Shown: one piece after another, positions 2,214-32,678 of the stretch
How positions within the stretch are numbered: the stretch's first letter is position 1
How the letters are laid out: each line of letters starts with the position of its first letter
Source: a virus
Virus record (IMG/VR): IMGVR_UViG_3300049432_000131
Location: 1-43,621 of that record
Length of the DNA: 43,621 nucleotides
Strand: one strand, 5' to 3'
Made by a program: the position numbers and the translations under genes
Notes under the pieces: model-generated
The model's database searches: none
The model's input: the letters and a program-made list of their open reading frames with translations, nothing else
What the model was told of the DNA's origin: nothing

Positions 2214-2243
2214 GATAACCGCCATGGGGCAGCTCCCTATAAT
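2214..2243 (+). promoter_or_regulatory. Late promoter for portal gene (GATAAC type)
   Basis: GATAAC (2214-2219), an 18-nt spacer, then TATAAT (2238-2243). The portal ATG is 14 nt after the -10, so the 5' leader would be about 7 nt and has no Shine-Dalgarno sequence. One of six promoters with the same unusual -35 and identical spacing. Confidence 0.75.
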
Positions 2244-2257
2244 CGGGTAGAGCCCCT

Positions 2258-4273
2258 ATGGACATTTTCAAACGCTTATTCGCCAAGGGTGCCCCCGCTG
2301 GCATCTTCTCAGTCGTCTTTCCCCAGGCGCCCGCTGGCTTGCAGAACCGCGAGTTCCTCAAGGCCTACAAGGGCTGGGTCTATGCCTGTGTGCGGGTGAT
2401 CGCCAACGACGTTGGCATGATCGAGCTCCAGCTCCAGGCCAAGACTGCCAAGGGTTGGGTCGAAGTTCAGAGGCACGAATCCCTGGACGTCATCGCGAGG
2501 ACCAACCCCTTCACCACCACGGACGGTCTCTTCAAGGGGACGTCGTCTTTCCTCGATCTGACCGGCAACGCGTTCTGGTACGTCGCCTACAACGGCCGTG
2601 GTGTGCCCGCCGAGATCTGGCAGCTTGACCCAACCAAAGTTGATGTGGTCAAAAGCGATAGCAACTTTATCCAGGAATACATCTACACCAACCCCAAGGG
2701 CGCCAAGATCCATCTCAAGCCTTGGGAGGTCATCCCCTTCCAGGAGTTCAACCCCGAAGATCCTTACAAGGGCAGAGGGCCAACCGAAGCGGCAGCGCTC
2801 TCAATCGACACCAACCAGTATGCCAAGGAGTGGAATCGCAACTTCTTCTTCAACTCGGCGATGCCCGCGATTGCCCTGACCTCGGAGCAGACGGTCACGC
2901 CAGAGCAGCGGGATCTTCTTCTGGAGAAGTGGCTTGCCCGCTTCAAGGGGGTCGCTAACGCCCATCAGCCCGTTGTGCTGGGTGGTGGCCTCAAGGTAGA
3001 GAAGATCGGCGACGGCGCCAAGGACATGGACTTTGCCAACCAGCTCACTTTCCTTCGCGACGAGATTCTTGCCACCTTCGGCGTCCCCAAGAGCGTGCTG
3101 GGTATCACCGAAGACGTGAATCGGGCCAATGCCGAGGCGTCTGAGTACGTCTTTGCTAAGCGCGTCGTCATGCCGCGCAACCGCTTCATCGCTACGACCC
3201 TCAGCGAGTTCTACCTTCCCCTCTGGGGACTCTCCCCCGCCAAGTACCGCTTCATCGCTAAGGACGTCGTGCCCCAGAACGTCGAGGCGGATCTGAAGCG
3301 CAAGCAGGTGAGCTTGGCAGGGGCGAGCTGGAGAAAGATCAACGAGATCCGGGAAGAGGAAGGTTTGCCGCCCGTCCCAGACGGCGACAAGCTCTTTATT
3401 CCGTCCACGCTGACCACCACCGACCTGACCGTCAACCCACCGGCTCCGCAACCGCTCGGTGGTCCCGGCGACAAACCCGGCGAGAAGCCTCCCAAGCCCG
3501 CGAAGGGAGTCACAAAGGGCACCGATGACGCCTCGGTCGGTCTGCGCATCACCTTCCTCCACAAGGCCATCATGGACGCGCAGAAGGACATGGAGACGAT
3601 CCTCACCACCATGGCCGCGGACGTTGCGACCAGGCTGGCGAAGGTCAAACCTCCCAAGAGCGTCAAGGCCGACGATCCCAACGCCACGTTGGTCACCGAA
3701 GCCGCACTCATCACCGCCGTCCTGGAGGGCTGGGAGGAGTACGCCGCGGTGCTTACCGCCTTCGTTGACGACACCGCCCGCCCGGTCTACGAGTTCGGCG
3801 GCACACGCTCGATCGCCCGCGCCGGTCTCTCGGTGGTCTTCGACCTGGACAACCCCCGCGCCGAGCAGTGGCTCAGAGATCGCGGCCTCCACTCCGCAAC
3901 CCAGATCAGCGACACCGTCAAAGAGGAGATCCGCGCCCGCCTCGTGCAGGGCGTCAAGGACGGCAAGGGTGCCAAAGAGATCGCCGCCGACATCGGCGAG
4001 TTCTTCGACGGCGAGAGCCAGTGGCGAGCGCTCAGGATCGCCCGGACGGAAGTGATCGAGGCCTACTCCCAAGGCTCACTCGAAGGCGCCCGTCAATCCA
4101 ACCTCACCGAGAAACGCTGGCTCACCGCTGGCGACGACCGGGTGGAGGAGGAGTGCATGCGCAACCAGTTCGCCGGGTGGATACCCCGCGAGCAAGCATT
4201 CCCCACTGGACATGTCGCCCCCGTGATTCATCCGAATGACCGCTGCGACGTCGAGTACCGCGCCGCCGCGTAA
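2258..4273 (+). CDS. Portal protein fused to a MuF-like head morphogenesis domain
   Basis: A 671-residue protein. Residues 1 to about 385 match the HK97-type portal family: N-terminal WVYACVRVIANDVG, central FLRDEILATFGVPKSVLGI, and a stem region with EASEYVF. The portal is the dodecameric ring through which DNA enters the head. A Pro/Gly/Lys linker (about 395-425) leads to a C-terminal part that resembles SPP1 gp7/MuF (about 525-671), with IRARLVQGVKDGKGAKEIAADIG, an RIARTEVIEAYSQG helix and a terminal C...H.NDRCDVEYR motif. Most phages encode these as two genes, so this is a fusion. It is expressed from its own GATAAC promoter. Confidence 0.9.
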   Translation: MDIFKRLFAKGAPAGIFSVVFPQAPAGLQNREFLKAYKGWVYACVRVIANDVGMIELQLQAKTAKGWVEVQRHESLDVIARTNPFTTTDGLFKGTSSFLDLTGNAFWYVAYNGRGVPAEIWQLDPTKVDVVKSDSNFIQEYIYTNPKGAKIHLKPWEVIPFQEFNPEDPYKGRGPTEAAALSIDTNQYAKEWNRNFFFNSAMPAIALTSEQTVTPEQRDLLLEKWLARFKGVANAHQPVVLGGGLKVEKIGDGAKDMDFANQLTFLRDEILATFGVPKSVLGITEDVNRANAEASEYVFAKRVVMPRNRFIATTLSEFYLPLWGLSPAKYRFIAKDVVPQNVEADLKRKQVSLAGASWRKINEIREEEGLPPVPDGDKLFIPSTLTTTDLTVNPPAPQPLGGPGDKPGEKPPKPAKGVTKGTDDASVGLRITFLHKAIMDAQKDMETILTTMAADVATRLAKVKPPKSVKADDPNATLVTEAALITAVLEGWEEYAAVLTAFVDDTARPVYEFGGTRSIARAGLSVVFDLDNPRAEQWLRDRGLHSATQISDTVKEEIRARLVQGVKDGKGAKEIAADIGEFFDGESQWRALRIARTEVIEAYSQGSLEGARQSNLTEKRWLTAGDDRVEEECMRNQFAGWIPREQAFPTGHVAPVIHPNDRCDVEYRAAA

Positions 4274-4275
4274 TG

Positions 4276-4305
4276 GATAACGGACTCTTTCTGCCTCCCT
4301 ACAAT
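4276..4305 (+). promoter_or_regulatory. Late promoter for prohead protease (GATAAC type)
   Basis: GATAAC (4276-4281), 18 nt, TACAAT (4300-4305). It begins 2 nt after the portal stop. The -10 box contains an in-frame ATG (4304), so that codon cannot be the translation start. Confidence 0.75.
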
Positions 4306-4321
4306 GGGGCAGAACCTACCT

Positions 4322-5185
4322 ATGGCACAAAAACTCATTCGCAAGACCTACCAGGCCGACACGAAGGCCGCGGAGGGGCAAGATCGCACCCTGATCGTCA
4401 CCATCTCCACCAGCAGCCCCGACCGTTCTCAAGACGTGGTCGTGCCGTCCGGCATGATCTCGGACAAGTACATGAAGAACCCCGTCGTTGCTGCCTTCCA
4501 CAGGTACAGCGAGCCCGCGATCGCAAAGACGTTGGAGCTTCAAGTCACCGACAACGCCGTCATCGCCAAGCTCCAGTTTCCACCCCAAGGCATCTACGAG
4601 AAGGCCGACCAACTCTACGAGCTCTACAAGGCCGGCTTCATGAACGCCTGGTCGATCGGCTTCATTCCAAAAGAGGCCGTGGATCTCGATCCTGATCGTC
4701 CCTACTCCGGTGGCCACCGCTTTGAGAAGTGGGAACTTCTCGAGTATTCGGCCGTCCTCGTCCCCGACAACCCGGAAGCGCTCACCATGCTGCGCTCCAA
4801 GGGCATCGAGGAAGAGCCATCCGACGAAGAGACGAAGGTCGTCGAAGTCGACGTCGAGGCAGACCGCGAGCAATCAGCTCAGGCAACCAAGGATCTCGAA
4901 GAAAAGGCTGCGACCGTAGGCATCGAGGTCAAGGGAGTCACGCTTGATGTCGAGGATGGAACTTACGTCCTGGACGTCGTCGTCGATGGCAAGGAACACA
5001 GCGTCACCTATCCGATTCCCGATGACGTCAAAGAGAAACTGAGAACGGGCGCTGAACATCCTGCCGCAGCCGCCGACGTTTCCAAGGCCCTCTCGGCTCT
5101 GCGTGATGCCCTGAAACCAGCCGACAAAGAGATCGGTCTGGTTCTCCGCTCGCTCAAAACCCTGCTAGATCAACCCAGTAAATGA
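4322..5185 (+). CDS. Prohead protease (HK97 gp4-like) with scaffold-like C-terminus
   Basis: A 287-residue serine protease that matures the capsid. Residues 1-150 carry the family pattern: TSSPDRSQDVVVPSG, PVVAAFH (His60) and NAWSIGFIPKE (Ser111), matching the catalytic His and Ser of the HK97 family. The C-terminal 130 residues are acidic and helical (ATKDLEEKAATV..., ALSALRDALKP) and may act as a scaffold. ATG 4322 is chosen because the upstream in-frame ATG at 4304 lies inside the -10 box. There is no ribosome site; the leader is short. Confidence 0.9.
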   Translation: MAQKLIRKTYQADTKAAEGQDRTLIVTISTSSPDRSQDVVVPSGMISDKYMKNPVVAAFHRYSEPAIAKTLELQVTDNAVIAKLQFPPQGIYEKADQLYELYKAGFMNAWSIGFIPKEAVDLDPDRPYSGGHRFEKWELLEYSAVLVPDNPEALTMLRSKGIEEEPSDEETKVVEVDVEADREQSAQATKDLEEKAATVGIEVKGVTLDVEDGTYVLDVVVDGKEHSVTYPIPDDVKEKLRTGAEHPAAAADVSKALSALRDALKPADKEIGLVLRSLKTLLDQPSK

Positions 5186-5210
5186 GAGGAGGTGAAACAC
5201 ACAGAAATAT

Positions 5211-6392
5211 ATGGATCCAAAACTACAAGAACAACTCAAACCAGTCGTAGAGGAAATAAAAACCTCTGTTACCGAGAACGTCAAAGAGCAGATGAAGGCG
5301 TCAATGCCGGCGATCACCGAAGACGTTTTCAAACGACTCGTTGACGAACTCCCCAACCGCAAAGACATCTTCGGGGGTGGCAATCACCAACCCGATGAGA
5401 AGGAAGCCCTCAAAGAGGGTAAGGAGAAGTCCGCCGAGTACATCAAGGCGGTCTTTGGCCGAGATTCCGCTCAAGTCAAGGCTCTTTCCGAGGGCACGGC
5501 GGCAGACGGTGGATACCTCGTTCCAGAAACGTTCTCCAGCGAGATCATCAGGATCGCTCCCAACTACGGGGTCGTGCGTCGCTTAGCACGCAACTACCCT
5601 GTATCAGGAGCAGGCTACAAGACCCACTTGCCGACAGTCGGCAACGTGACCGTCTCTCGTGTCAACGAGAAGGCCAAGATCCCTGCATCTCAGCCAACCA
5701 TGGGCCAGACCAACATCACGATCAAGAAGATCGCCGGTCTCGTGCCGATGTCCAACGAGCTGCTCAAGGACGCCAACACCGACACCGTCAACATCTTGAC
5801 GACCCTCTTCGCGGAGGCCCTCGCCAAGTACGAAGACGAGTGGGGCTTCCTCGGGAAAGCTGCCGGAGAAGGTATCTTCCAGAACACCAGCGTGCCAGTC
5901 GTAACCATGGGCTCCGGCCTCGACACCTACGTCGAGATCACCGAAGACCACCTGCTCGACCTCTTAGGTCAGCTCGACGAAGCAGCGTTGTCTGGAGCGA
6001 AATGGTTCATGTCCTTTAGCGTCTTCAACGCCCTCAGACGGCTCGAAGACTCCACAGGGCAAAAGCTCATCCAGAACCCAACTGCTGCTCAACCAGCAAC
6101 GATCTGGAACATCCCGATCCAGTTTGTCCGAGGCATGCCAAAGACATCTGACGGGTCACAGGCTGGAACCAAGTTCCTCGCTGTCGGAGATTTGAACTAC
6201 ATGCTCTTTGCCGACAAGAAAGAGTACGAACTCAAGATCTCTCAAGAGGCAACCATCACCGACGTCGACGGATCAACCCTGATCAACTTGTTTGAACAGG
6301 ACATGTCCGCGGTTCGCGTGATCGAACGAGTCGACATCGCTCTTGCTGAAGCAGCAAAAGCGTTCGCCGTGCTCAAGACCGCAGCGTCATAA
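5211..6392 (+). CDS. Major capsid protein (HK97 fold)
   Basis: A 393-residue protein with a helical, charged N-terminal delta-like region (1 to about 95), followed by the typical HK97 capsid entry motif GTAADGGYLVPETFSSEII (about 101-119) and a C-terminal ELKISQEATI...F.QDMSAVRVIERVD strand region. The delta region is presumably removed by the adjacent protease just before ALSEGTAADGG. AGGAGGTG lies 16 nt before the ATG, unusually far. The start sits in the repeated context ATATATG. A strong hairpin follows the stop. Confidence 0.93.
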   Translation: MDPKLQEQLKPVVEEIKTSVTENVKEQMKASMPAITEDVFKRLVDELPNRKDIFGGGNHQPDEKEALKEGKEKSAEYIKAVFGRDSAQVKALSEGTAADGGYLVPETFSSEIIRIAPNYGVVRRLARNYPVSGAGYKTHLPTVGNVTVSRVNEKAKIPASQPTMGQTNITIKKIAGLVPMSNELLKDANTDTVNILTTLFAEALAKYEDEWGFLGKAAGEGIFQNTSVPVVTMGSGLDTYVEITEDHLLDLLGQLDEAALSGAKWFMSFSVFNALRRLEDSTGQKLIQNPTAAQPATIWNIPIQFVRGMPKTSDGSQAGTKFLAVGDLNYMLFADKKEYELKISQEATITDVDGSTLINLFEQDMSAVRVIERVDIALAEAAKAFAVLKTAAS

Positions 6393-6399
6393 CGCTGAG

Positions 6400-6446
6400 G
6401 CGCTTCGCCACTACCGGGGAGGGATCTCACCGGTAGCACGAAGCGG
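6400..6446 (+). promoter_or_regulatory. Strong hairpin after the capsid gene
   Basis: CGCTTCG pairs with CGAAGCG and, inside, CTACCGG pairs with CCGGTAG, giving 14 bp around a 12-nt loop. No T-run follows. It may protect the capsid mRNA 3' end or set a processing point between the capsid gene and the next gene. That role is inferred. Confidence 0.5.
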
Positions 6447-6474
6447 GTATAACCGCCCAGGGGGAGGTGATTTT

Positions 6475-6882
6475 ATGGCAAGAGTACGATTCGTATCTCC
6501 AACATTCTATGACGGCGTGAGCTACGCCCAGAACCAGGTCGTTGACCTATCCGATGACGCCGTAAAGGCACTCGGCGACTCCGTTGAGCGTGCCGACGAT
6601 GTCAACGTTGAAGAGACAGCGGAGAAGCTGGCAGACCAGACCGCCGATCCTGATACCCGTGCCGAACTCGACGTTCATCACGAGCCAGGGGACGCACAGG
6701 ATGTCCCTGACGCGCTTCGCGACGAAGCAGCTAACCTCAAACAAGGGGAAGAGGCTGTTTCTCCATCACGAGACGCCAACGTTACCGTCGATCTCCTGAG
6801 GGTGAATCCAAAGACCGACAAGAAGTCGGTGGACAAGCCAACGGAAAACAAGATGGTTAATAGGGCACCTACCAAGAAATAG
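6475..6882 (+). CDS. Small head-associated protein, unknown
   Basis: A 135-residue protein. GGGGGAGGTG lies 5 nt before ATG 6475, which fixes the start. The N-terminus (RVRFVSPTFYDGVSYAQNQVVDLSDDAVKALGD) resembles short phage head proteins that contain a small beta-barrel with a 'G..Y..G.VVDL.D..A..L' pattern. The remainder is acidic and low-complexity, then basic. Its position directly after the capsid gene suggests a minor head or decoration role. Function is not established. Confidence 0.6.
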   Translation: MARVRFVSPTFYDGVSYAQNQVVDLSDDAVKALGDSVERADDVNVEETAEKLADQTADPDTRAELDVHHEPGDAQDVPDALRDEAANLKQGEEAVSPSRDANVTVDLLRVNPKTDKKSVDKPTENKMVNRAPTKK

Positions 6883-6911
6883 GCGGCTTCTAGCCCATCA
6901 CAAGACGCGAG

Positions 6912-6936
6912 AGCCCGCCTCTACAGGCGGGTTTCG
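6912..6936 (+). terminator. Rho-independent terminator (weak T-run)
   Basis: Hairpin CCCGCCT (6914-6920), CTAC loop, AGGCGGG (6925-6931), followed by TTT. It lies between two head genes and would lower read-through into the next gene. Confidence 0.65.
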
Positions 6937-6970
6937 TGTGAAAGGAGGTGAAACAAACCAGTAATCATAT

Positions 6971-7396
6971 ATGGCAAACGTAATATTTAATAGTTTCAAG
7001 CGCGACATCATGAATGGGTCAATCGACCTTGATACCGACACGATCAAGGTCATGTTGGTCACCAGCGCCTACACGCCCGACCAGGATGCCCACACCAAAC
7101 GCTCTGACGTCACCAACGAAGTCTCGGGCACCGGCTACACCGCCGGCGGGGCGGCGCTCGCCAACAAGGCAGTCACCGCCGACAACACCGACAACGAAGG
7201 CGTCTTCGACGCCGACGATCCGGTCTGGGCGGCGTCGACGATCACGGCGCGGGGAGCCGTGCTCTACAAGTCCAGAGGCGGACTAGCATCAGCGGACGAG
7301 CTGCTCTGTTACTTCGACTTCGGGTCGGACCAGATCAGTTCCAACGGGAACTTCACGATCCAGTGGAACAGCGAGGGAATCATCAATCACGGGTAG
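6971..7396 (+). CDS. Phage structural protein, head/decoration-like
   Basis: A 141-residue protein of a pattern common in phage head modules: FNSFKRDIMNGSIDLDTDTIKVMLVTSAYTPDQDAHTKRSDVTNEVSGTGYTAGG, then an ARGAVLYKS strand and a C-terminal NGNFTIQWNSEGI. Such proteins are small virion components of uncertain role. AAAGGAGGTG lies 19 nt before the ATG, too far for normal pairing; the start is again in the ATATATG context. Confidence 0.65.
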   Translation: MANVIFNSFKRDIMNGSIDLDTDTIKVMLVTSAYTPDQDAHTKRSDVTNEVSGTGYTAGGAALANKAVTADNTDNEGVFDADDPVWAASTITARGAVLYKSRGGLASADELLCYFDFGSDQISSNGNFTIQWNSEGIINHG

Positions 7397-7404
7397 TCCC
7401 GAGC

Positions 7405-7520
7405 GGGTGGCGTCTTCCCGTCCCTCGCTGGAGGGCGCTACCCACTGCGTATGAAGACCGTCTTCTTCCCAGTCCACGAGCTACCGACATCTCTCCTTGA
7501 GAGGGGGTCGGTCGTGGACT
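7405..7520 (+). promoter_or_regulatory. Structured leader with two hairpins before the fibre gene
   Basis: The first hairpin pairs GGGTGGCG (7405-7412) with CGCTACCC (7436-7443), with an inner CCCTC/GAGGG. The second spans 7471-7520: AGTCCACG pairs with CGTGGACT, then ACCGAC with GTCGGT, then CTCTC with GAGAG. It ends one base before the TAATG that contains the fibre start. No ribosome site is visible outside the structure, so it may control translation of the fibre. Confidence 0.6.
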
Positions 7521-7521
7521 A

Positions 7522-9714
7522 ATGGCAGCACTATTTGACAATGCCACAACCGCTCAGTTCGGAGACGGGTTAGGCTCTCAAAACAATCTTTCTTTCTCCC
7601 ATACGACTGCTGGGTCCGACCGCATTCTGCTTGTTGGGGTAGTTCACTCAGGAGCAAACTCGGTTACTATCACCAGCATTACCTATGGTGGGCAGTCCAT
7701 GACTGCTGTTCAGGCCAAGTCTGACATTACAACCTCGTTTCATCTCCAGACCTTTTACTTGGTCAATCCCCCGCTCGGGTCAAATACGCTTGCCATCAAC
7801 TTCAGCGCCAGTATTTCGCTGATCATTGCCGCAGCCGTTTCCCTAAAGGATGCCAACCAGGCAGCTCCAAACACCAGCAACGGGGGCATCGGCACCTCTC
7901 TCTCCCCCTCAACAACGCTTACTCCTGGTTCAGGCGACACCATGATGGTCGACTTTGTGGGTCTAGCAAACGCCACCTCAACCATAGCTGTGGGAGCGAA
8001 CCAGACCGAAAGGGTGAACGCACTAAACTCGGCCGTCGCTCGTCGGCTGGGAGCCAGTACAGAGCCTCTTGTCTCAGGAACCGGAACAATGAGTTGGACG
8101 ATCTCGGGATCGACAAACCGATCTTGGGGTATTCATGCGATGGCGATCGCCCCTGTTGGTGGCGGCGCAACAAACGTCACGACGACTCCAGGAGCCCAGA
8201 CCGTGACCAGCTCGCAACCCAGCCCTACGGTCTCCACCGAGCGCCAACCAACCGTCACGCCCGCCGCCCAGACGGTTACCTCCTCTCAACCGTCCCCTAC
8301 GGCCACGGGACAGCGAGCAGCGACCGTGACACCCGCCGCCCAAGATGTCACCGCTTCCCAACCCGAGGAGACCGTTGCGGTCGGCGTTACGTCCGCTCCC
8401 GGTGCGCAAGAGGCAACCGCCTCCCAACCCGCCCCCACGGTCTCGACGACCCGCAACGTGACCCAAGCGCCCGCCTCCCAAGACGTCGCGTCCTCTCAAC
8501 CTCCTCCTACGGTCTCCGCGCAGCAGCAGGCAACCATGACGCCAAGCGTCCAGACGGTGACCTCGTCGCAGCCCAGTCCCACCGTCACGGCCGGCCGCGA
8601 CGCCACCATTGCGGCTCAGCCCCAGGCCACGACGGCAGACCAGCCATCACCCACCGTCCAGGCGGATCGCAGCGCCACGGCCACTCCGGCGGCTCAGACG
8701 GTGACGTCCTCGCAGCCCGAGGAGACGGTACAGACCGAGCGCAGCACAACCGCTACCCCGAGCGTCCAGACGATAACGGGCACCCAGGAAGCGCCAAGCG
8801 TCAGCGCTCAGCGCCAGGCAACCGCTACCCCGAGCGCTCAGGAGGTGACCGCCACGCAACCGGAAGAGGCCGTGTCGATCAGCGACCAGGCAAGTCCAGC
8901 ATCCCAAGACGTGGCCAGCTCACAGCCATCTCCTTCCGTCTCGACCCAGCGTCAACCCACCGTCACGCCGTCAGAGCAGACAGCGAGCGCCTCACAACCT
9001 ACCCCCAGTGTTTCTACCGGAACCGACGCCACCGTGACCCCTGGAGCGCAGGCGGGGAGTGCCTCGCAGCCGGCACCGACCGTCAGCGCGGAACAGAACG
9101 TCACGGTGGCACCTTCCCCCCAAGTCGCCGCCACGTCTCAACCCGAGGAATCGGTGGCGACGACGCAGAACGCCGCGCCAACCCCAGGCGTCCAGACCGT
9201 CACCAGCTCGCAGCCGAGCCCAACGGTTCAAGGACAGCGCGACGCGACCCCAACGCCAGGCAGCCAGGACGGAGTAACCTCGCAGCCAGCAGCAACACCG
9301 AGCGCTCAGCGCCAGGCGACAACGACCCCAGACGCACAGGATCTCACCGCCATGGCGCCCGAGGAGACCGCCACGGGCGAAGCCGGTGCCCTCGTCACGC
9401 CGCAGGCCCAACAGGTCACCGCTTCCCAACCCGAGGAATCGGTGTCCGGGGAGGCAAGGATCAGCCCCGTTGCCCAGGTGGTGACGCCCACTCAGCCAAC
9501 GCCCATCGTCCACGCCGATGCGGTGGTAACACCGGAAGAGCAGGACCTAACGACCTCCCAGCCAGAACCCACCGTCCGCTTTGAGGCAGGGCTCTACACG
9601 CGAGGCGTCGGCCGCTTCAACCGACTGGCCAACGGCCACGGCCGCGCAGGCGGGAGCGGGACGCGAGCAGCGGCGGCGTTTGCCCGCCAGGTTCCCCGCT
9701 ACAACCGGGGATAA
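7522..9714 (+). CDS. Repeat-rich fibre/adhesin-like virion protein
   Basis: A 730-residue protein. Residues 1 to about 212 form a beta-rich globular domain (LLVGVVHSGANSVTITSITYGGQSM...GIHAMAIAPVG) of the type seen in adhesins. Residues about 215-690 hold about 20 tandem units of 22-24 residues with consensus T-x-TP-x-x-Q-x-VTSSQP-x-PTV-x-x-x-R-x-A. The last 35 residues are Arg/Gly-rich and basic. The repeat array is probably an extended shaft rich in Ser, Thr, Pro and Gln. The gene lies in the head module, before the connector genes, so a head fibre or decoration is as likely as a tail fibre. The repeats are well diverged at DNA level. Confidence 0.65.
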   Translation: MAALFDNATTAQFGDGLGSQNNLSFSHTTAGSDRILLVGVVHSGANSVTITSITYGGQSMTAVQAKSDITTSFHLQTFYLVNPPLGSNTLAINFSASISLIIAAAVSLKDANQAAPNTSNGGIGTSLSPSTTLTPGSGDTMMVDFVGLANATSTIAVGANQTERVNALNSAVARRLGASTEPLVSGTGTMSWTISGSTNRSWGIHAMAIAPVGGGATNVTTTPGAQTVTSSQPSPTVSTERQPTVTPAAQTVTSSQPSPTATGQRAATVTPAAQDVTASQPEETVAVGVTSAPGAQEATASQPAPTVSTTRNVTQAPASQDVASSQPPPTVSAQQQATMTPSVQTVTSSQPSPTVTAGRDATIAAQPQATTADQPSPTVQADRSATATPAAQTVTSSQPEETVQTERSTTATPSVQTITGTQEAPSVSAQRQATATPSAQEVTATQPEEAVSISDQASPASQDVASSQPSPSVSTQRQPTVTPSEQTASASQPTPSVSTGTDATVTPGAQAGSASQPAPTVSAEQNVTVAPSPQVAATSQPEESVATTQNAAPTPGVQTVTSSQPSPTVQGQRDATPTPGSQDGVTSQPAATPSAQRQATTTPDAQDLTAMAPEETATGEAGALVTPQAQQVTASQPEESVSGEARISPVAQVVTPTQPTPIVHADAVVTPEEQDLTTSQPEPTVRFEAGLYTRGVGRFNRLANGHGRAGGSGTRAAAAFARQVPRYNRG
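8174..9590 (+). repeat. About 20 tandem 66-72 bp coding repeats
   Basis: In-frame repeats encode the 22-24 residue unit (TPxxQxVTSSQPxPTV). Units are clearly homologous in protein but vary at third positions, and several units share longer identical stretches. This pattern suggests old expansion with selection on the protein. Confidence 0.85.
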
Positions 9715-9739
9715 CCGTGCGCGGGGACGTTCCTACAAT
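9710..9739 (+). promoter_or_regulatory. Late promoter for connector genes (GATAAC type)
   Basis: GATAAC (9710-9715) overlaps the fibre stop codon. After 18 nt comes TACAAT (9734-9739). The start codon follows 29 nt after the -10. Confidence 0.75.
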
Positions 9740-9768
9740 GGGGTAGGCGCATCCTGCGCCCGTTTCCT

Positions 9769-10302
9769 ATGCCGTACATCAGCAAGACCGACGTCAGTAA
9801 CCACCTCAACATCACCGCCCTCAGCTCCGCCGCCGAAGCCACCCTCGACGTGATCATCGCCGGTGTCGAAGCCGCCGCCGACACCTTCTGCAACCGCACC
9901 TTTGGCGCCACGGCTCTGCAGACCGAACTCTTCGACGGCAACAGCGACATCTTCTTCCCCCGCAAGATGCCGGTGAGCTCGATTACCTCGGTCAAGATCG
10001 ACGGCGACCTCGTGGCCGCTGACGACATCTACAACTACGGCCACTACATCCGGCTTGGCTACCGCGCCGCCCCCGGTAACCGCATCGTCGAGATCACGTA
10101 CACCCCCACAGAGACCCTCCCAAACGACGTCAAGCTCGCCCTCATCCAGTGGGCTGGCCAGCTCTTCAAAGCGGCCGAGGACGGCGGCAAGGTCACCGAG
10201 CGTGTCCGCGTCGGCGAGGTCGAGCTGTGGTTCAAGACCCAGGACGGGATGCCCAAATTCGTCGAGCAGGTGTTGGCGCGGTACCGCGTCTACCCGCTCT
10301 AA
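9769..10302 (+). CDS. Head-tail connector protein (gp6-like)
   Basis: A 177-residue protein. The N-terminus (YISKTDVSNHLNITALSSAAEATLDVIIAGVEAAADTFCNRTF) matches the helical phage gp6-like connector family that forms a ring under the portal. The C-terminal part has the usual V.L.LIQWAGQLFK helix. It opens a block of small head-tail joining genes in the canonical siphovirus order. Confidence 0.8.
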   Translation: MPYISKTDVSNHLNITALSSAAEATLDVIIAGVEAAADTFCNRTFGATALQTELFDGNSDIFFPRKMPVSSITSVKIDGDLVAADDIYNYGHYIRLGYRAAPGNRIVEITYTPTETLPNDVKLALIQWAGQLFKAAEDGGKVTERVRVGEVELWFKTQDGMPKFVEQVLARYRVYPL

Positions 10303-10305
10303 CCT

Positions 10306-10623: not shown

Positions 10624-11099
10624 GCTACCGCCTGACCGCCGACGTGATCGGAGCCGACGAGCTACGGCGTGCCTTCCAACAGGCGCCCAAGCTCACCCTG
10701 CGGGAGCTCTCTCGCGCAATCGGATCCACCGCGGCGTCGATCCAGGGGAAGGCCAAGCAGTACGCGCCGGTCGACCAGGGCATCCTGCGGGCGTCCATCC
10801 ACACCGAAGGACCGCACCAGCGCGGCAACGACGTCGAGGCCAAGGTGGGCACCAACGTCAAGTACGCCCCCCACCAGGAGTACGGCACCGGGATCTACGG
10901 TCCCAAGAAGCGCAAGATCGTCCCGATCAAAGGGAAGTTTCTCGTCTTCAAGGTGGGCGCAGAGACCGTCTTCGCCCGCTCGATCAAGGGCGTCCGTCCG
11001 AAGCTCTATTTCAAACGCGGTATCGACGAGAGCCAGCCCCACTTTGCGTCCTCGATGCGGGATGCACTGACGGCGATCGTGAAAGGACTCGCCGCCTGA
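10620..11099 (+). CDS. HK97 gp10-like head-tail joining / minor tail protein
   Basis: A 159-residue protein with family features: GADELRRAFQQAPKLTLRELSRAIGSTAASIQGKAKQYAPVDQGILRASI, then VGTNVKYAPHQEYGT. ATG 10620 overlaps the previous stop by 4 nt, which fixes the start. It is placed where tail-completion proteins are normally encoded. Confidence 0.8.
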   Translation: MSYRLTADVIGADELRRAFQQAPKLTLRELSRAIGSTAASIQGKAKQYAPVDQGILRASIHTEGPHQRGNDVEAKVGTNVKYAPHQEYGTGIYGPKKRKIVPIKGKFLVFKVGAETVFARSIKGVRPKLYFKRGIDESQPHFASSMRDALTAIVKGLAA

Positions 11100-11103
11100 A
11101 CCT

Positions 11104-11505
11104 ATGGGTTACGTCTCAATCGCCAATAAGCTTGTTGCCCTCCTCGAAGAGATCACCGATTTCTCCGTGGTCTACGACCACGACGTTCCCCAACTGGCAG
11201 GGTTCCCCGCCGCCACCGTCCAGGCAGCCTCCCACCAAAACACCTTCCACGACACGGCAGCCAACAGCCGCACCTACACCTTCTTGATCCGCCTCTTCTA
11301 CCGGCTCGACGTCGACCAGGACGCCGAGACGATCCTGCGCGACCTCGCCGACCAGGTGATCGCCAAGCTGGAGCAAAACGTCACCGTCGCCGGTGTCTGG
11401 GAGATCGCCCAGCCCACGAGCGGGGTGTTCGTCAAGGACAAGCGGGAAGTCGACGTCCAGATCGTCGAGCTGAGTGTGGCGATCCGCTCCCGCGTTCTGC
11501 GTTAG
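11104..11505 (+). CDS. Tail terminator-like protein
   Basis: A 133-residue protein with an N-terminal helix (IANKLVALLEEI), a central RTYTFLIRLFYRLDVDQDAETILRDLADQVIAKLEQN and C-terminal VDVQIVELSVAIRSRV. This matches phage tail terminators that cap the tube at the head-proximal end. It lies directly before the tail tube gene, as expected. Confidence 0.7.
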   Translation: MGYVSIANKLVALLEEITDFSVVYDHDVPQLAGFPAATVQAASHQNTFHDTAANSRTYTFLIRLFYRLDVDQDAETILRDLADQVIAKLEQNVTVAGVWEIAQPTSGVFVKDKREVDVQIVELSVAIRSRVLR

Positions 11506-11512
11506 GGACATG

Positions 11513-11542
11513 GATAACCGCTCTATTTGACATAACTACAAT
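11513..11542 (+). promoter_or_regulatory. Late promoter for tail genes (GATAAC type, with embedded TTGACA)
   Basis: GATAAC (11513-11518), 18 nt, TACAAT (11537-11542). The spacer also contains TTGACATAAC, the -35 text of the early promoters, but at a spacing unsuitable for this -10. The next ATG (11550) is 7 nt after the -10, so the transcript should be leaderless. Confidence 0.7.
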
Positions 11543-11549
11543 GAGGGTG

Positions 11550-11729
11550 ATGGCTACTTATCGCTACCGCTACACGGGGAAAGACCCCGTTCATATGCCG
11601 ACCATCGGCGCGTCCGTCAAGCACGGCGACGAGGTCGAGAGTGAGCACGCAATCCACCACCCCGACTTCGAGCGCGTCCAGGACGAGCCGAAAGAGGAGA
11701 AGGAGGACACGGCGAAGAAGCACCGCTAA
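11550..11729 (+). CDS. Small charged protein of the tail region
   Basis: A 59-residue protein: MATYRYRYTGKDPVHMPTIG, then a C-terminal acidic/basic tail ending KKHR. ATG 11550 is preferred because the in-frame ATG at 11541 lies inside the -10 box. Similar tiny genes lie between tail terminator and tail tube in many siphoviruses. Function is unknown. Confidence 0.6.
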   Translation: MATYRYRYTGKDPVHMPTIGASVKHGDEVESEHAIHHPDFERVQDEPKEEKEDTAKKHR

Positions 11730-11735
11730 TCGTTT

Positions 11736-12695
11736 ATGTCAGCAGGCGTTTTATCAGCAATCAGTTTTGGTCTCGAATCGACCTGGGGCACCCCCGTCGT
11801 TCCCAATAAGTCGATCGCGATTCGTCCCGGCGACGGTATCCAGACCGACACCGATCTGCAGCTCGTCTCCTCCATCAAGGCCCAGCTCGCCAGGAATGCC
11901 AGTTCCTTCAAAGGAGCCCAAACGCACGAGGGCGAATACGAGCTCGACTTCATCCCCGGCGTCGCCGGTTACCTGATCAGAAGTGCCCTCGGTTCCGTCT
12001 CCTCAGCCGCCAAGATCGCCCCCAACGCCGCCGTCTACGACCACACCTTCTCCGAAGCCGAGACCAAACCCTCCCTCACCGTTGAACAGGCGGTCGGCGA
12101 CATCGTCCGACGCTACGCCGGGGTCATCGTCAACTCCCTCAAGTTCTCCGTCTCCCCTGGGGAAGCCCTCGCCCTCACCGCGGGGATGAAGGCCAAGAGT
12201 TCGGCCTCCGCATCCAAGATCACCCCAACCTACGAAACGATCCGACCCTTCAACTTCGCCGACCTGGGCGCGGCAGGAGTGTCGATCGGCGGCCAGGCCT
12301 ACACCCCTCGCGCCCTCGAGGTGACCTACAACAACAACCACGAGCTGCTCCACACCCTCGGAAGCAACGATCCGTCCCATAACTACGCCAAGGGCTCAGA
12401 GGTGACCGGCTCGTTCGAGCTCTACCTCGACGCCACCAGCGCCGCCGAGTACGCCGACTACCTGAGCAAGACCGACAACGCCCTCGTGATCACCTTCACC
12501 GGCGATGCCATCGGCTCCAGCAGCAACTACGGTCTGCAGATCAGCATTCCCAAGGCGTCCTACAACGCCGCCACCTTCCCCGTCACCGACGAATACAACA
12601 TGCTCTCGGTCGAGTTCGACGGCATCTACGACACCGCGACCAGCAAGCTCTTGACCATCGTCTTGACCAACCTGCTCACAACCTACGCTAGCTAA
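11736..12695 (+). CDS. Major tail tube protein
   Basis: A 319-residue protein with tube-protein features: N-terminal SFGLESTWGTPVVPNKSIAIRP, central HDHTF-like strands (YDHTFSEAETKPSLTVEQ), and a C-terminal LSVEFDGIYD...SKLLTIVLTN. It follows the tail terminator and directly precedes the frameshifted tail chaperone pair. The last base is shared with the next ATG (TAATG). Confidence 0.85.
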   Translation: MSAGVLSAISFGLESTWGTPVVPNKSIAIRPGDGIQTDTDLQLVSSIKAQLARNASSFKGAQTHEGEYELDFIPGVAGYLIRSALGSVSSAAKIAPNAAVYDHTFSEAETKPSLTVEQAVGDIVRRYAGVIVNSLKFSVSPGEALALTAGMKAKSSASASKITPTYETIRPFNFADLGAAGVSIGGQAYTPRALEVTYNNNHELLHTLGSNDPSHNYAKGSEVTGSFELYLDATSAAEYADYLSKTDNALVITFTGDAIGSSSNYGLQISIPKASYNAATFPVTDEYNMLSVEFDGIYDTATSKLLTIVLTNLLTTYAS

Positions 12696-13042
12696 TGGAC
12701 AACATCACCCTCACCACGCCTAGCGGCTGGAAAGCCGTCATCAAGCCCTTCATGACGTTCGGCGACAAACGCGCCCTGGAGCGTGTCTTTGCCGAGGGGA
12801 TGACCCTCGATTCCAAGGGAGATCCCCATGCCTCAGGCAAGTCCGTCTACGACGCCCAGGACAAGGCCGTTTCGATGATGGTCAAAGAACTGGTCGCGCC
12901 CGATGGCGGTAATCCGATCGTCAACCCTGAAATGATTCTTGCCAAGATCATGGCCATGCCCGAAGAGGACGGCCGGATGATCTACGACAAGGTCAACGAG
13001 CTCACCAACCCCACGCCGCAAGGCGAAAAAAGGGGGAGCTAG
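12695..13042 (+). CDS. Tail assembly chaperone, short form
   Basis: A 115-residue protein between the tube and tape measure genes, the fixed location of the gpG-type chaperone. Pattern: MDNITLTTPSGWKAVIKPFMTFGDKRALERVF... . It ends shortly after the run GCGAAAAAAGGGGGA, which allows a -1 shift to give the long form. Confidence 0.75.
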   Translation: MDNITLTTPSGWKAVIKPFMTFGDKRALERVFAEGMTLDSKGDPHASGKSVYDAQDKAVSMMVKELVAPDGGNPIVNPEMILAKIMAMPEEDGRMIYDKVNELTNPTPQGEKRGS

Positions 13043-13257
13043 AACTCGCCCTCTTCGCCCTCTACCGCAACGGCGGCACCGTCCCCGACGAGTACCTCAC
13101 CGCCTACCTCTGCGACCAACTCAACCTCACCTACACCGACCTGATGGCCCAACCCGATTGGTGGGTCAGGCAGATGCAAACCATCCACCGCCAGAAGGCG
13201 CGTGCCCACGCCGCCGCCCAGCAGGAACAGCAGCGCAAGATCGCCAAGAAGCGCTAA
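12695..13257 (+). CDS. Tail assembly chaperone, long form by -1 frameshift
   Basis: The zero frame reads GAA AAA AGG GGG AGC TAG (13025-13042). A slip of one base back on the A6G5 run (13026-13036) continues as KGELELALFALYRNGG...DLMAQPDWWVRQMQTIHRQKARAHAAAQQ, ending TAA 13257. The extension has no start codon of its own and good coding character. This matches the gpG/gpGT arrangement, in which both products load the tape measure. The slip mechanism (ribosomal or transcriptional) cannot be told from sequence. Confidence 0.8.
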
Positions 13258-13259
13258 CA

Positions 13260-13289
13260 GATAACCGGAAGCCGCCAGATCGCTAAGAT
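13260..13289 (+). promoter_or_regulatory. Late promoter for tape measure gene (GATAAC type)
   Basis: GATAAC (13260-13265), 18 nt, TAAGAT (13284-13289). The 35-nt leader holds a small hairpin CCCGC-CTC-GCGGG. Confidence 0.7.
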
Positions 13290-13324
13290 GGGAGTGAAGG
13301 CCCGCCTCGCGGGTTCCTCCCTTT

Positions 13325-15493
13325 ATGGCAGACGAACGCACCCTAGAAGTCGTCCTCCGGGCACGAGACGAAGCATCCAAGACGATCAACCAAGTTGCCC
13401 ACGCCTCAGACGGCCTGTCGGAGTCGTTCAAACGCAACCTCAAAGAAGCCGGTCTCTTCGCCGGTGGTGTCCTCGGCTCCCTCGGTCTTCTCACCCAAGC
13501 CGCCGTCGCCAACGCCGCCTCCTACGAGCAGAACCGCATCGCCTTCGAGTCGATGCTCGGCTCGGCAGACAAGGCCCGCGTCCTCCTCAAGCAGGTCTCC
13601 GACTTCGCCCAGAAGACGCCGTTTGAGCTGCCCCAGGTCGTCCAGGGCTCACGCCAGCTCCTGGCCTACGGCATCGAAGCCAAGAACATCATCCCCACCT
13701 TCAAGATGCTGGGCGACATCTCCGCAGGCGTCGGCACCGACAAGCTCCCCCAACTGATCGTCGCCTTCGGTCAGGTCCGCGCCGCCACCAAGCTCACCGG
13801 CATGGAGCTGAGGCAGTTCTCGGAGGCGGGCGTTCCGTTACTCGACGCCCTCGTCAAGAACGCCAACAAGGCGGGCGGGATGCTCGTGACGGTCGGGGGC
13901 GGGGCAAAGAAGGCCAAGGTCGACGTCAAGGAGATGAACGACCAACTGGGGATCGCCAGGCAGAAGCTCAAGGAGGCAACGGACGCGGGGAAGGCCAAAG
14001 AGTCGACGCTGATGACGCTGCGCAACAAGATCGAGAACTACGAGGGCAAGCTCTCCTCTGCCTCCACCGCCCAGCAGACCTTCACCAAGCGGGTCAAGGT
14101 CACCAAGCAGCAGATGATGGAGATGATCTCGGAGGGGAAGGTCAGCGCCGAACAGGTGGAGCAGGCCCTCTCCGGCATGACCACCAAGGGCGGGCTCTTC
14201 TTCGAGGGGATGGAGCGACAGTCCAAGACCTTCAACGGCGTCATGTCCAACGTCCGGGACAACTTCGGCAAGTTCGTGCGGGAGATCGTCGGCATCTCCG
14301 ATCAGGGCGACATCCGCGAAGGGTCGCTCTTTGCCTCCCTCAAGGTGGGCGCAGAGGGGCTCCTCCGGGCACTGGAGGAACTGCGACCCAAGGCCACCGC
14401 CGCCGTCAACGCGTTTATTTCCAACAAGAGCGCCGTGATTGCCCTGGCAGGCGCCCTGGGCGGGATGCTCGTCTTGGCGATCGGCGCCTTCGTCGCCGCC
14501 TTCGGTCCCGCCATCGCGATCATGACCGCCGTCGCCGCAGCGGGAGCCGGCGTCGCCTATGCCCTCACCCGCATCGACGACATCGCCCGGACCCTCGTGC
14601 CCCAACTCGCCGCCGCCACCGCCGCCGTCTTCGTCCTCAACGGCGGGTTCGTCGGGCTCTTCGCGACCATCGCCGCCAACCCTCTCGGTGCCCTCGCGAT
14701 TGCCGTCCTCGCCGTCGCGTCGGGTGTGGTCTACCTGGCCACGCAGACGGATCTGCTCAAGACCAAAGAGGACTTCCTGAGACAGGCCCAGGACAACGTC
14801 AAGACCGCCCAGGATCAACTGAAGATCTCCACCGACCAACTGGCCGGGGCGCGGGAGAACCTCAAGGACGTCGAGCTGCGGCTAGAGGGCGCCAACCTGG
14901 CGATGATCCGGGCGCAGCGGAACGTGATCGACGTCCAGCGCCGCTACGGCGAGAGCTCGTTCGAGGCCAAGGAAGCACGCCACCAACTGGAGCAGGCCGA
15001 ACGGGAGGCCGAGAAGGCGATCACCGCCGGGAAAGACGCCCTCGTCCAGGCCGATACCGCCCAGCAGAACTTCATCGCCAACTCGAAGAAGCTCAAAGAG
15101 GCCGACGACAAGGTGGTGGAGACGCGCAACATCCACAAGACCTCGTGGGAGCAGATCCGCGATTCGATTGGCGGTGCCATCGGCAAGCTGATGGAGTGGA
15201 ACGACGCCGCGATGCGCTTCGGCATCGGCGTCGGTGGCCCGAGCGGGATCAAGCTCCCCAAGTTCGCCGATGGTGGCTGGGTGCCCCAGACCGGACCCGC
15301 GATCGTCCACGCCGGGGAGTTCGTGCTCTCCCGCGACATGCTGCGTGGCCGCGATCCGATCCCGTCGAACGTCGTCGAGCGCAACCAGACCAACTCGGTG
15401 CAGATCGGCCCGGTCTACGTCCGCAACGAATCCGACATCCAGAGTCTTTCCCAGCGCCTTGATTACATGCTGAGAACGTCGGGAAGCCTATGA
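13325..15493 (+). CDS. Tail tape measure protein
   Basis: A 722-residue protein. The N-terminus (LEVVLRARDEASKTINQV) and FESMLGSADKARVLLKQVSDFAQKTPFELPQVVQGSRQLLAYG are typical tape measure motifs. Hydrophobic segments lie at about 375-410 and 430-465, followed by a long coiled coil (about 480-600) and a C-terminal FADGGWVPQTGPAIVHAGEFVLSRDML motif. It sets tail length and enters the host membrane on injection. At about 0.15 nm per residue the tail would be near 110 nm (family rule, not measured). No peptidase or lysozyme domain is visible. Confidence 0.92.
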   Translation: MADERTLEVVLRARDEASKTINQVAHASDGLSESFKRNLKEAGLFAGGVLGSLGLLTQAAVANAASYEQNRIAFESMLGSADKARVLLKQVSDFAQKTPFELPQVVQGSRQLLAYGIEAKNIIPTFKMLGDISAGVGTDKLPQLIVAFGQVRAATKLTGMELRQFSEAGVPLLDALVKNANKAGGMLVTVGGGAKKAKVDVKEMNDQLGIARQKLKEATDAGKAKESTLMTLRNKIENYEGKLSSASTAQQTFTKRVKVTKQQMMEMISEGKVSAEQVEQALSGMTTKGGLFFEGMERQSKTFNGVMSNVRDNFGKFVREIVGISDQGDIREGSLFASLKVGAEGLLRALEELRPKATAAVNAFISNKSAVIALAGALGGMLVLAIGAFVAAFGPAIAIMTAVAAAGAGVAYALTRIDDIARTLVPQLAAATAAVFVLNGGFVGLFATIAANPLGALAIAVLAVASGVVYLATQTDLLKTKEDFLRQAQDNVKTAQDQLKISTDQLAGARENLKDVELRLEGANLAMIRAQRNVIDVQRRYGESSFEAKEARHQLEQAEREAEKAITAGKDALVQADTAQQNFIANSKKLKEADDKVVETRNIHKTSWEQIRDSIGGAIGKLMEWNDAAMRFGIGVGGPSGIKLPKFADGGWVPQTGPAIVHAGEFVLSRDMLRGRDPIPSNVVERNQTNSVQIGPVYVRNESDIQSLSQRLDYMLRTSGSL

Positions 15494-16320
15494 TCACGTC
15501 CATCGTTATCGGTTCGATTACCCTCTCCGGCACCGGCAGCTACGTGCTGAACGGGGTGCGTGGGCTGGAGCTGCCACCGATCCGCCTGGCCTCCTACGAC
15601 CTGGCCGGTGCGGACTTCGGGCGCTTCGTCTCCTCCTTCTTTGGCCGGCGCCGCTTCGCCCTGGAGGGCGTGGTGATCGGCGAGGACGCCACCGACTTCA
15701 TCGCCAAGCGCAACGCCCTGATCGTCGCCGTGGGTGGGAGTGGCGGCGAGCAAATCATCACGATCACGACCAGCGACGGCCGGGTGCTGCGGATCGTCGC
15801 CGCGCTGGCGATGTTCGACTTTCCGCCTCAGGCGGGCATCCCCGCCGCCGCGATGTTCCGCGCCGAATTTGAAGCAGCCGTCCCGTTTCTCGAGTCCGCC
15901 AATGCCGTCGCCTACAGCCTGACCCTGCCCACAGGCGGTGGGGGCAAGGTGCCGCCCGACACGATGCCGATGGCTCTCGCCTTTGGCCAGGGCGGTTCGG
16001 CCTTCGTCACCAACGCGGGCAACGCACCGGCCTTGCCGACCGTGCGGATCGCCGGTCCCGTGACCAACCCCGCGCTGCGCAACAACGCCACCAACCAGGA
16101 GCTTTCCTTCGACATCGTCTTGGTCACCGGGGAGTCCCTCGACGTCGACTTCCGGCAGAAGACGGTCACCGACCACTCGGGGCGCAACCGCTTCGATACG
16201 AAGGGAGGTGACTGGTGGAGCCTGGCGCCCGGTGTGTCCGAGATCCGCTTCGTGGCGGACTCGACCGACCCGGCCGCGCTTGTAACCCTGACTGTGAGGG
16301 ATACATACCTGGGCACCTAA
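15490..16320 (+). CDS. Distal tail protein (Dit-like)
   Basis: A 276-residue protein starting in the ATGA overlap with the tape measure stop. The N-terminal LELPPIRLASYDLAGADFGRFVSSFFGRRRFALEGVVIGED and the two-domain beta organisation fit Dit-type proteins, which form the hexameric hub at the tail tip. Position after the tape measure is canonical. Confidence 0.75.
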   Translation: MITSIVIGSITLSGTGSYVLNGVRGLELPPIRLASYDLAGADFGRFVSSFFGRRRFALEGVVIGEDATDFIAKRNALIVAVGGSGGEQIITITTSDGRVLRIVAALAMFDFPPQAGIPAAAMFRAEFEAAVPFLESANAVAYSLTLPTGGGGKVPPDTMPMALAFGQGGSAFVTNAGNAPALPTVRIAGPVTNPALRNNATNQELSFDIVLVTGESLDVDFRQKTVTDHSGRNRFDTKGGDWWSLAPGVSEIRFVADSTDPAALVTLTVRDTYLGT

Positions 16321-16326
16321 GCGTCT

Positions 16327-17361
16327 ATGGGGCTCTACGACTTCGTCATCGTCGACAAGGCGGGCAACAAGGTTGCCAGTCTCCAGGGGGCGCACCAGCG
16401 CTCCTACGCGACCTATCTCAACAAGACCGGGGAGGCGCGGTTTGTCCTCTCCCCGACCGATCCGGTGCTCACGGCCGACACCTTGCTCCTGGGACACAAG
16501 GAGCTCCAGGTCTGGCGGGCCAACAAACTCGTCTGGGGTGGGGAACTCGTCTACGCCCGCACCGACCTGTCCGCCGACGACGAGCGGGTTGAGGTTGCCG
16601 CCAAGGGGTATCTCGATCTTCTGGCCAAGCGCTACGTCGGCACCGCCGCGGCGCCTGTCTCCTACGAGGCCGGGGACTGGAACATCGACCAGATCGCCGC
16701 GGAACTCGTCTACCTCTACGCCGGGGACTTCGGGATCACGATCGGCGCCTACCCGGCCTCCAGTAGACCGGCCGACCGCACCAACATGCAGTACAAGAAC
16801 CTCAAGGAGATCGTCGACGAGGTGGGCAACGACCACGTCCAAAACGGCATCGACTTCGAGATCACCCCGGACAAGAAGTTCAACGTCTTCTACCCCCAGA
16901 AGGGACGCCAGCTCCCAGAGATCGTCTTCGAGTGGGGCGTTAACATCGTTTCCTGCTACGAGATCCGCGACGCCACGGAGCTGGCCAATCAGGTGATCGT
17001 GCTGGGCGCCGGGGAAGGTTCTTCGATGGTGACGGCGATGGTCGAGAACACCGCCCTGCAGGCCATCTACAAGAAGCGGCAGACGATCCTCTACCACAAG
17101 GAGATCATCGGCGTGGAGACGCTGGAGGAGCACGGCGACAAGGAACTCGCCGTGCACCAGCTCCCGCCCCAGATCATCGGCGTGACGACGAAAGGGGACC
17201 TGGCGCCGACGGTTGGCTCCTACGAGGTGGGCGATTCGGTGCGGGTGAAGATCAAGCGCGGACTGATCGACATCGACGGCTTCTACCGGATCTACGGCAT
17301 CGCCGTGCAGGTGACCGACAGCGACGAGGAGACGATCCAACTGATCTTCAATCGACAATAA
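16327..17361 (+). CDS. Tail hub / tail-associated protein
   Basis: A 344-residue protein (YDFVIVDKAGNKVASLQGAHQRSYATYLNKTGEARFVLSPTDP..., LVWGGELVYARTDLSADDERVEVAAKGYLDLLAKRYV). It resembles the central baseplate hub proteins (Tal/gp18-like) that follow Dit. No lytic domain is seen. Confidence 0.7.
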   Translation: MGLYDFVIVDKAGNKVASLQGAHQRSYATYLNKTGEARFVLSPTDPVLTADTLLLGHKELQVWRANKLVWGGELVYARTDLSADDERVEVAAKGYLDLLAKRYVGTAAAPVSYEAGDWNIDQIAAELVYLYAGDFGITIGAYPASSRPADRTNMQYKNLKEIVDEVGNDHVQNGIDFEITPDKKFNVFYPQKGRQLPEIVFEWGVNIVSCYEIRDATELANQVIVLGAGEGSSMVTAMVENTALQAIYKKRQTILYHKEIIGVETLEEHGDKELAVHQLPPQIIGVTTKGDLAPTVGSYEVGDSVRVKIKRGLIDIDGFYRIYGIAVQVTDSDEETIQLIFNRQ

Positions 17362-17363
17362 CC

Positions 17364-17813
17364 ATGGCACTACCCAACGACATACTCAGCACCATCGGCG
17401 ACCTCCGGCGGAGGTTGCGCAACCTGGAGAGCAATCCCCAGCCGCCCTCGATCACGCTCTCGGAGACGGGGACCGCGAGCTTCGACCTGGCCGCAGCCGG
17501 CGACGCCTCGCACAACGACGTCTACCTGATCACCGCCGAACTGACCGAGCTCGACGACAAGCGGCTTCTCGTCATGCCGACCTTCAGCATCTACAAGACG
17601 TCGGTCGGCGTTGCCAACCTGTGGCCCTTCGGCGCCAACTGGACGATCGCCGAACAGCGCAACCTCTTCATCACGACCTGGATGGACTGGGGGGAGACCG
17701 ACAACAACAACGCCGTCTTCAAGATCCTTCTGCAGAACAAGCACACCGCCGCGATCACCGGGCTCCTGCTCAAGATCAACTTCCGCTACCAGATGAGGGA
17801 GGCCAGCCTGTGA
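17364..17813 (+). CDS. Minor tail protein, unknown
   Basis: A 149-residue protein with an N-terminal helix (ILSTIGDLRRRLRNLESNP) and a beta-rich body (DVYLITAELTELDDKRLLVMPTFSIYK...). The short trimerising-type helix plus beta domain suggests a tail tip component. It sits between the hub and the receptor-binding gene. No firm family is recognised. Confidence 0.55.
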   Translation: MALPNDILSTIGDLRRRLRNLESNPQPPSITLSETGTASFDLAAAGDASHNDVYLITAELTELDDKRLLVMPTFSIYKTSVGVANLWPFGANWTIAEQRNLFITTWMDWGETDNNNAVFKILLQNKHTAAITGLLLKINFRYQMREASL

Positions 17814-18067
17814 GAAACAAACTCGTGATCTTCGAGGACGGCACCCGCGCCGTGGTCGAAGGCCTTTCCGTCCAGGCCGGCAGTCGGATCACCGAGGAAG
17901 TCGCCCTCGACGAGCTCGACGCGGAGGAGCTTGCCCTCGTCCACCACGAGCGCAAGGATCTGCAACTGGAGCGGGACGAGGGAGGCCGGATCGTCGGGTT
18001 GAAGAAGGGGAAGAGCCTGCTTCGTCTTGGCCAGAAAAGGGATAACCGAGGAGGGAAGCGTTCCTAG
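17810..18067 (+). CDS. Small tail-region protein
   Basis: An 85-residue protein starting at GTG 17810, in the GTGA overlap with the previous stop. GAGGGAGG lies about 9 nt upstream. The sequence (RNKLVIFEDGTRAVVEGLSVQAGSRITEEVALDELDAEELALVHHERKD...) is acidic, then basic at the end. Function is unknown; it belongs to the tail operon. Confidence 0.6.
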   Translation: MRNKLVIFEDGTRAVVEGLSVQAGSRITEEVALDELDAEELALVHHERKDLQLERDEGGRIVGLKKGKSLLRLGQKRDNRGGKRS

Positions 18068-18070
18068 AAT
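18041..18070 (+). promoter_or_regulatory. Late promoter for receptor-binding gene (GATAAC type)
   Basis: GATAAC (18041-18046), 18 nt, TAGAAT (18065-18070). ATG 18085 follows 14 nt after the -10, giving a very short leader without a ribosome site. Confidence 0.75.
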
Positions 18071-32666: not shown

Positions 32667-32678
32667 AGAAGAAACCCT

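Follow-up and report, generated by a model that had tools for sequence, protein, structure and literature searches.

The late genes of the phage analysed here, by kinship a virus of the ultra-small Patescibacteria, and of its relatives are preceded by promoters with a private -35 tag, which is very probably read by a small viral DNA-binding protein whose reading surface differs where the tag differs. According to the model that we consider likely, host sigma would read the -10 box of these promoters, with the product of gene 64, together with that of gene 65, reading the -35 box, probably in the place of sigma region 4. The stretch of DNA studied (the window, 43,621 nucleotides) is the whole of its source record in IMG/VR (IMGVR_UViG_3300049432_000131) and looks like a complete phage record, its first 152 bases being repeated at the end.

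Six Late Promoters with a GATAAC -35 Box

The pattern GATAAC-N18-TANRAT occurs exactly six times in the window, always on the + strand, and was absent from 100 dinucleotide shuffles of the window (mean 0.00):

2214..2243, + strand: late promoter 1, GATAACCG, -10 TATAAT; before the portal gene (2258-4273)
4276..4305, + strand: late promoter 2, GATAACGG, -10 TACAAT; before the maturation protease gene (4322-5185)
9710..9739, + strand: late promoter 3, GATAACCG, -10 TACAAT; before the head-tail adaptor gene (9769-10302)
11513..11542, + strand: late promoter 4, GATAACCG, -10 TACAAT; before a 59-aa tail gene (11550-11729)
13260..13289, + strand: late promoter 5, GATAACCG, -10 TAAGAT; before the tape measure gene (13325-15493)
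18041..18070, + strand: late promoter 6, GATAACCG, -10 TAGAAT; before a virion structural gene (18085-19143)

These positions and the 18-nt spacing agree with an earlier note made on this DNA, as does the common -35 reading that it gave for five of the six sites (GATAACCG). When spacings from 10 to 26 were scanned on both strands, N18 on the + strand was the only one to give GATAAC/TANNAT pairs, and none of the nine remaining GATAAC copies in the window has a matching -10. Among the 6-mer/spacing pairs upstream of the window's 56 TANNAT, GATAAC at N18 ranked first and TTGACA at N18 (three cases) second, once shifted copies of the GATAAC motif had been set aside. An exact GATAACCG-N16-TANAATGGG scan of IMG/VR returned seven stretches, one of them the same phage (L103) and the others single matches on unrelated contigs, treated as chance.

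The sites had also been placed directly before structural genes, which is true of all six, with the qualification that promoter 6 lies within the 3' end of gene 22, whose stop codon is part of the promoter -10, and that the site at 9710 overlaps the final bases of the gene upstream. Start codons lie 7-35 nt after the -10, and leaders would thus measure about 0-30 nt, given a transcription start ~7 nt after the -10. At promoter 4 the start codon of the 59-aa tail gene, after which a minor tail gene (11736-12695) comes second, is close to the predicted transcription start. Two of the late-gene leaders contain short GC-rich inverted repeats, GGCGCA/TGCGCC in 9740-9768 and CCCGC/GCGGG in 13290-13324. 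Some genes of the window have a strong AGGAGGTGA Shine-Dalgarno sequence (5184-5223, 6940-6979, 37968-38007 and 40517-40556), in two cases ~20 nt before a ATATATGG start, which is more distant than usual; the late-promoter genes are devoid of strong Shine-Dalgarno sequences of this type. The window also encodes, at 7522-9714, a 730-aa tail-associated protein in which an imperfect 72-nt (24-aa) repeat, rich in T, A, Q, P and S, occurs at least nine times.

The rest of the window genome carries eight TTGACA-type promoters, between 23166 and 40501, several of which read TTGACATAA-N17/18 and have a -10 of the same kind as the late sites:

29896..29925, - strand: host-type promoter, TTGACATAA, N18, TACGAT; before gene 45 (SSB-like)
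35064..35093, + strand: host-type promoter, TTGACATAA, N18, TAAGAT; before gene 50 (not late)
36911..36939, + strand: host-type promoter, TTGACATAA, N17, TACAAT
40473..40501, + strand: host-type promoter, TTGACATAA, N17, TATAGT; upstream of the cluster ending in genes 64 and 65

Since TTGACA stands at the N18 register in non-late promoters, GATAAC occupies exactly the TTGACA register. The earlier view that the -10 stays sigma-70-like while the -35 departs from TTGACA is therefore supported, the non-late promoters of the same phage having kept TTGACA.

A Late-Promoter Class Common to Related Phages

Relatives were collected by a portal alignment search of IMG/VR (identities from 49% downward, 36-49% for the motif-bearing ones); a tape-measure search gave distant domain matches only. 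An unbiased hexamer count upstream of TANNAT in these phages revealed a TGTATAA-type element, at N18 as in the window, the full pattern being T[GA]TATAA[GC]-N18-TANAAT. Counted over all loci, the gene strand has 51 copies of T[GA]TATAA-N18-TANNAT, compared with 0-5 at each other spacing and 0-3 on the opposite strand. An open reading frame starts at most 45 nt downstream in 61 of the 62 unique sites, whose information content reads W4-T(G/A)TATAA(G/C) followed by TANAAT; the third base ahead of the -10 is a C, and a purine stands 7 nt past the -10. The late sites are co-oriented in the six larger contigs (7, 7, 8, 9, 3 and 6 sites), and the class is limited to late genes in ~18 related phages. 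The commonest distance between the -10 and the start codon is 6 nt, at which the ATG coincides with the predicted transcription start and the mRNA would be leaderless, implying that many late mRNAs of Patescibacteria phages would lack a leader (sites in L032, L025, L028, L034 and others).

The six window sites are one diverged version of this class. Comparison with related phages, which the earlier note had proposed, uncovered promoters of the same register in which the TGTATAA type stands in for GATAAC. With respect to the family element, GATAAC retains the ATAA core and the register, but has lost the upstream T(G/A) and the A/T tract and gained CG downstream. In what we regard as the best explanation, and a likely one overall, the -35 of the window lineage would have diverged from the family TGTATAAG to GATAACCG.

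Genes 64 and 65 Are the Candidate Readers of the -35 Box

When each window protein was compared with 14 groups of related contigs, the structural genes proved to be shared, and the only non-structural genes found to be widely conserved were the following two, present in 11 (gene 64) and 12 (gene 65) of the 14 groups:

42425..42751, + strand: gene 64, 108 aa, stand-alone helix-turn-helix of the sigma region 4/GerE type; proposed -35 reader
42748..42969, + strand: gene 65, 73 aa, overlapping gene 64; proposed partner protein

The groups without gene 64 consist of contigs truncated upstream of the portal gene, or of a clade with a strongly diverged domain that is still recognisable through its fusion to the gene 65 domain. 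The two genes are adjacent in relatives and lie upstream of the terminase genes; in the window (42425-42969), terS comes next across the circle at 51-530, and the pair is also upstream of the terminase-portal region in L025, L027 and L028. In G395, G396 and the L034/L036/L039/L042 clade, gene 65 and the gene 64 domain form one fused protein.

The earlier note had attributed the replaced -35 recognition to a phage-coded activator or an altered sigma. The comparison supports a phage-coded factor and speaks against an altered full sigma. Sigma region 2 (PF04542) was found neither in the window nor in six relatives, in a search with one Pfam model that can miss diverged sigma factors and that was positive in 11 of 14 control genomes, and a stand-alone region-4-like protein acting with host sigma is accordingly the likely alternative to a full sigma. 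With TIGR02937 and the PHROG sigma factors, the match of gene 64 is confined to their region-4 part and falls below the cut-offs; its matches to GerE/LuxR helix-turn-helix domains are weak as well. For nine of ten members of its family the best Pfam family is GerE, and by sequence the best solved-structure matches are LuxR-type response regulators. In the model of the fused family the helix-turn-helix is confident (pLDDT 90-97) and resembles both solved sigma region 4 domains, SigD4 among them (TM-score 0.89 on the target), and LuxR domains, with Foldseek E-values all >0.05. Window gene 64 modelled alone (moderate, pLDDT 72) likewise gives fold matches that mix LuxR and sigma region 4.

The domain thus fits GerE/LuxR no worse than sigma region 4, and gene 64 may be an ordinary LuxR/GerE-type activator that binds at or near the -35 and recruits polymerase, sigma region 4 keeping its place. 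Its slot upstream of terS is moreover that of RinA/Ltr, possibly activators of this sort (PMC13123087). We regard this reading as a serious one, although on the doubtful side. Sigma region 4 domains can likewise be superimposed closely on the fused-family model, no TTGACA-like sequence is left at the late sites, and what is conserved is a single, asymmetric, non-palindromic 7-8-mer in the exact TTGACA register. The 62 sites of the relatives disclosed no conserved second half-site to the -35 element, that is, nothing of the two-half-site operator of a LuxR/GerE dimer. That the site is one asymmetric element standing precisely in the -35 register suggests that gene 64 takes the place of sigma region 4.

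The family proved difficult to extend. Window gene 64 alone as query found no relative and added no further GATAAC-type phages; a scan with the A-tract clade recovered only its four known members; and the fused gene 64-65 protein had no Tblastn match among 50,697 phage records. The alignment of gene 65 by itself is too diverse for scanning. In 380 Patescibacteria genomes there was one strong gene 64 relative, located in the prophage-bearing metagenome-assembled genome (MAG) described below, and the other matches look like LuxR or longer regulators.

The Recognition Helix and the -35 Box Change Together

In phages with TGTATAA sites the recognition helix of the gene 64 protein is QAxHQI, almost invariantly Q-A/S-x-H-Q-I, the MAG relative having N for H. 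In the window the helix is LQICRM and the -35 is GATAACCG. In the L034/L036/L039/L042 clade the helix is SKIYKI, and the 12 late promoters carry, in place of the TGTATAA element, an invariant A7 at -22 to -16 from the -10; CC(A/G) again precedes the -10, and most starts are leaderless. The helix positions compared are presumably those contacting the -35, by mapping onto sigma-70 region 4.2 (TRERIRQIE). Two independent matched changes, in two diverged lineages, are strong circumstantial evidence, short of proof, in favour of gene 64 as the -35 reader.

Altogether, the late promoters would be used by host RNA polymerase, with host sigma region 2 reading the unchanged -10 (TANNAT). The gene 64 protein with its gene 65 partner would read the late -35 instead, probably from the position otherwise taken by sigma region 4, and the two products would then activate the scattered late promoters; in the window lineage, the recognition helix would have diverged along with the -35. 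The motif with its register and conservation, its confinement to late genes of phages, and the conserved and partly fused genes 64 and 65 are observed directly; the binding of the gene 64 protein to the -35, its replacement of sigma region 4 and the timing of these events are what we infer from the sequences. A bolder version, the chances of which we see as evenly balanced, is that a detachable sigma region 4 and its partner swap into the host holoenzyme, with a specificity that has evolved at least twice (towards GATAACCG and the A7 tract).

A Probable Patescibacteria Host

Among genomes, the portal family found its best match on a contig of a Patescibacteria MAG (0.9 Mb). On another contig of this MAG (C8), a prophage from the same phage family is represented by its tail end, which is joined to chromosomal genes including gatCAB. 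The prophage end comprises tape measure, Dit-like, fibre, endolysin and integrase-like genes, named from a reading of translated starts and from matches to related phages, and a tRNA-Asp lies ~0.9 kb beyond the integrase-like gene. By kinship, the host of the window phage is assigned to Patescibacteria. No integrase was noticed in the window.

TTGACA-N17/18-TANNAT occurs 30 times in the MAG, against 3 for the reversed control, and TRTATAA-N18-TANNAT four times, all on the portal contig or the prophage end. The late -35 is therefore a phage property and the host uses TTGACA. This bears on the idea that a host alternative sigma reads the -35 and is exploited by the phage, genes 64 and 65 having some other role. 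Host RNA polymerase would be needed in any case, and no phage RNA polymerase was noticed in the families searched, but the restriction of all family-motif matches in the MAG to phage contigs means that no host regulon uses the late motif, and the motif varies between phage lineages together with gene 64; we consider this idea improbable.

Slightly less probable still is that another phage protein reads the -35. Gene 1 (terminase small subunit) has a sigma-region-4-like helix-turn-helix, matching Sigma70_r4_2 at 1e-6, and is conserved in 11 of 14 groups, but it sits in the small-terminase slot directly before the large terminase gene; for the helix-turn-helix genes 3, 39, 52 and 56, the motif-bearing phages contain no relative. 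That the repeated element is some other regulatory or packaging signal before late genes is very hard to reconcile with its fixed N18 distance to a TANAAT -10 and with the purine-rich position 7 nt downstream, where the start codon often lies.

Several other features of the window were recorded. Positions 30526-36156 encode two TraG/VirB4-like ATPases along with a Replic_Relax protein and an antirestriction-like protein, which suggest a plasmid-like module; of the relatives compared, G001 (L114-L116) alone has them too. An inverted repeat with 50-nt arms (20773-20822 and 21343-21392, 82% complementary) flanks a small reverse-strand gene after the lysis region. Two small lysozyme-like proteins are encoded at 37424-37969 and 41360-41800, the first resembling one in L131.

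Comparison with Known Systems

In the middle promoters of phage T4, the MotA box replaces the -35 and host sigma region 2 keeps the -10 (PMC6755090). The window family shares the replacement of the -35 by a phage element with retention of the -10, and where T4 needs two phage proteins, MotA and AsiA, it has two conserved neighbouring genes. However, the MotA and AsiA families were absent from the Pfam and PHROG matches of gene 64 and from the Pfam matches of gene 65, so that homology is not apparent in family searches. Furthermore, the MotA box is centred at -30 and serves middle genes, whereas the window-family element lies in the -35 register and serves late genes, and its proposed DNA reader is itself sigma-region-4-like. 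The best reading is that the window-phage system would be functionally like MotA/AsiA without being homologous to it.

Genes 64 and 65 resemble RinA/ArpU/Ltr, late regulators known from staphylococcal and related phages, in lying at the end of the early genes, upstream of terS (PMC13123087), yet an NCBIfam scan of gene 64 gave no match to the RinA/ArpU models up to E 1. RinA/Ltr promoters give one late transcript, and the sequence through which Phi13 Ltr works, from -107 to -42, lies upstream of the core promoter (PMC13123087). In the window the element replaces the -35 and is carried by at least six separate late promoters.

A third group of systems involves sigma-like proteins, some of them split, that direct phage or special promoters. 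These include PBSX Xpf, SPO1 gp33/gp34 and Bacillus subtilis SigO/RsoA, in which an own region-2 part is used or both boxes are changed. The window family differs from these descriptions in keeping a host-type -10, with no region 2 found.

A phage factor that replaces -35 recognition is already known in kind. The stand-alone sigma4-like reader with a fused partner, the co-varying elements and the Patescibacteria setting appear new relative to the libraries searched. In the literature searched, neither promoters nor late-gene regulators had been described for phages of Patescibacteria.

Significance

The late promoters of Patescibacteria phages and their candidate regulator can be read from sequence: the site is precise, one conserved gene pair is the candidate, and matched protein/DNA variants form a natural series. 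The system would be a compact counterpart to T4 sigma appropriation, and one in which the co-evolution of a DNA-reading helix with scattered promoters can be tested directly. The motif can also be used to find and orient Patescibacteria phages and to assign their hosts. If the proposed mechanism is true, a phage would alter promoter specificity by evolving only a small protein and its late -35 boxes.
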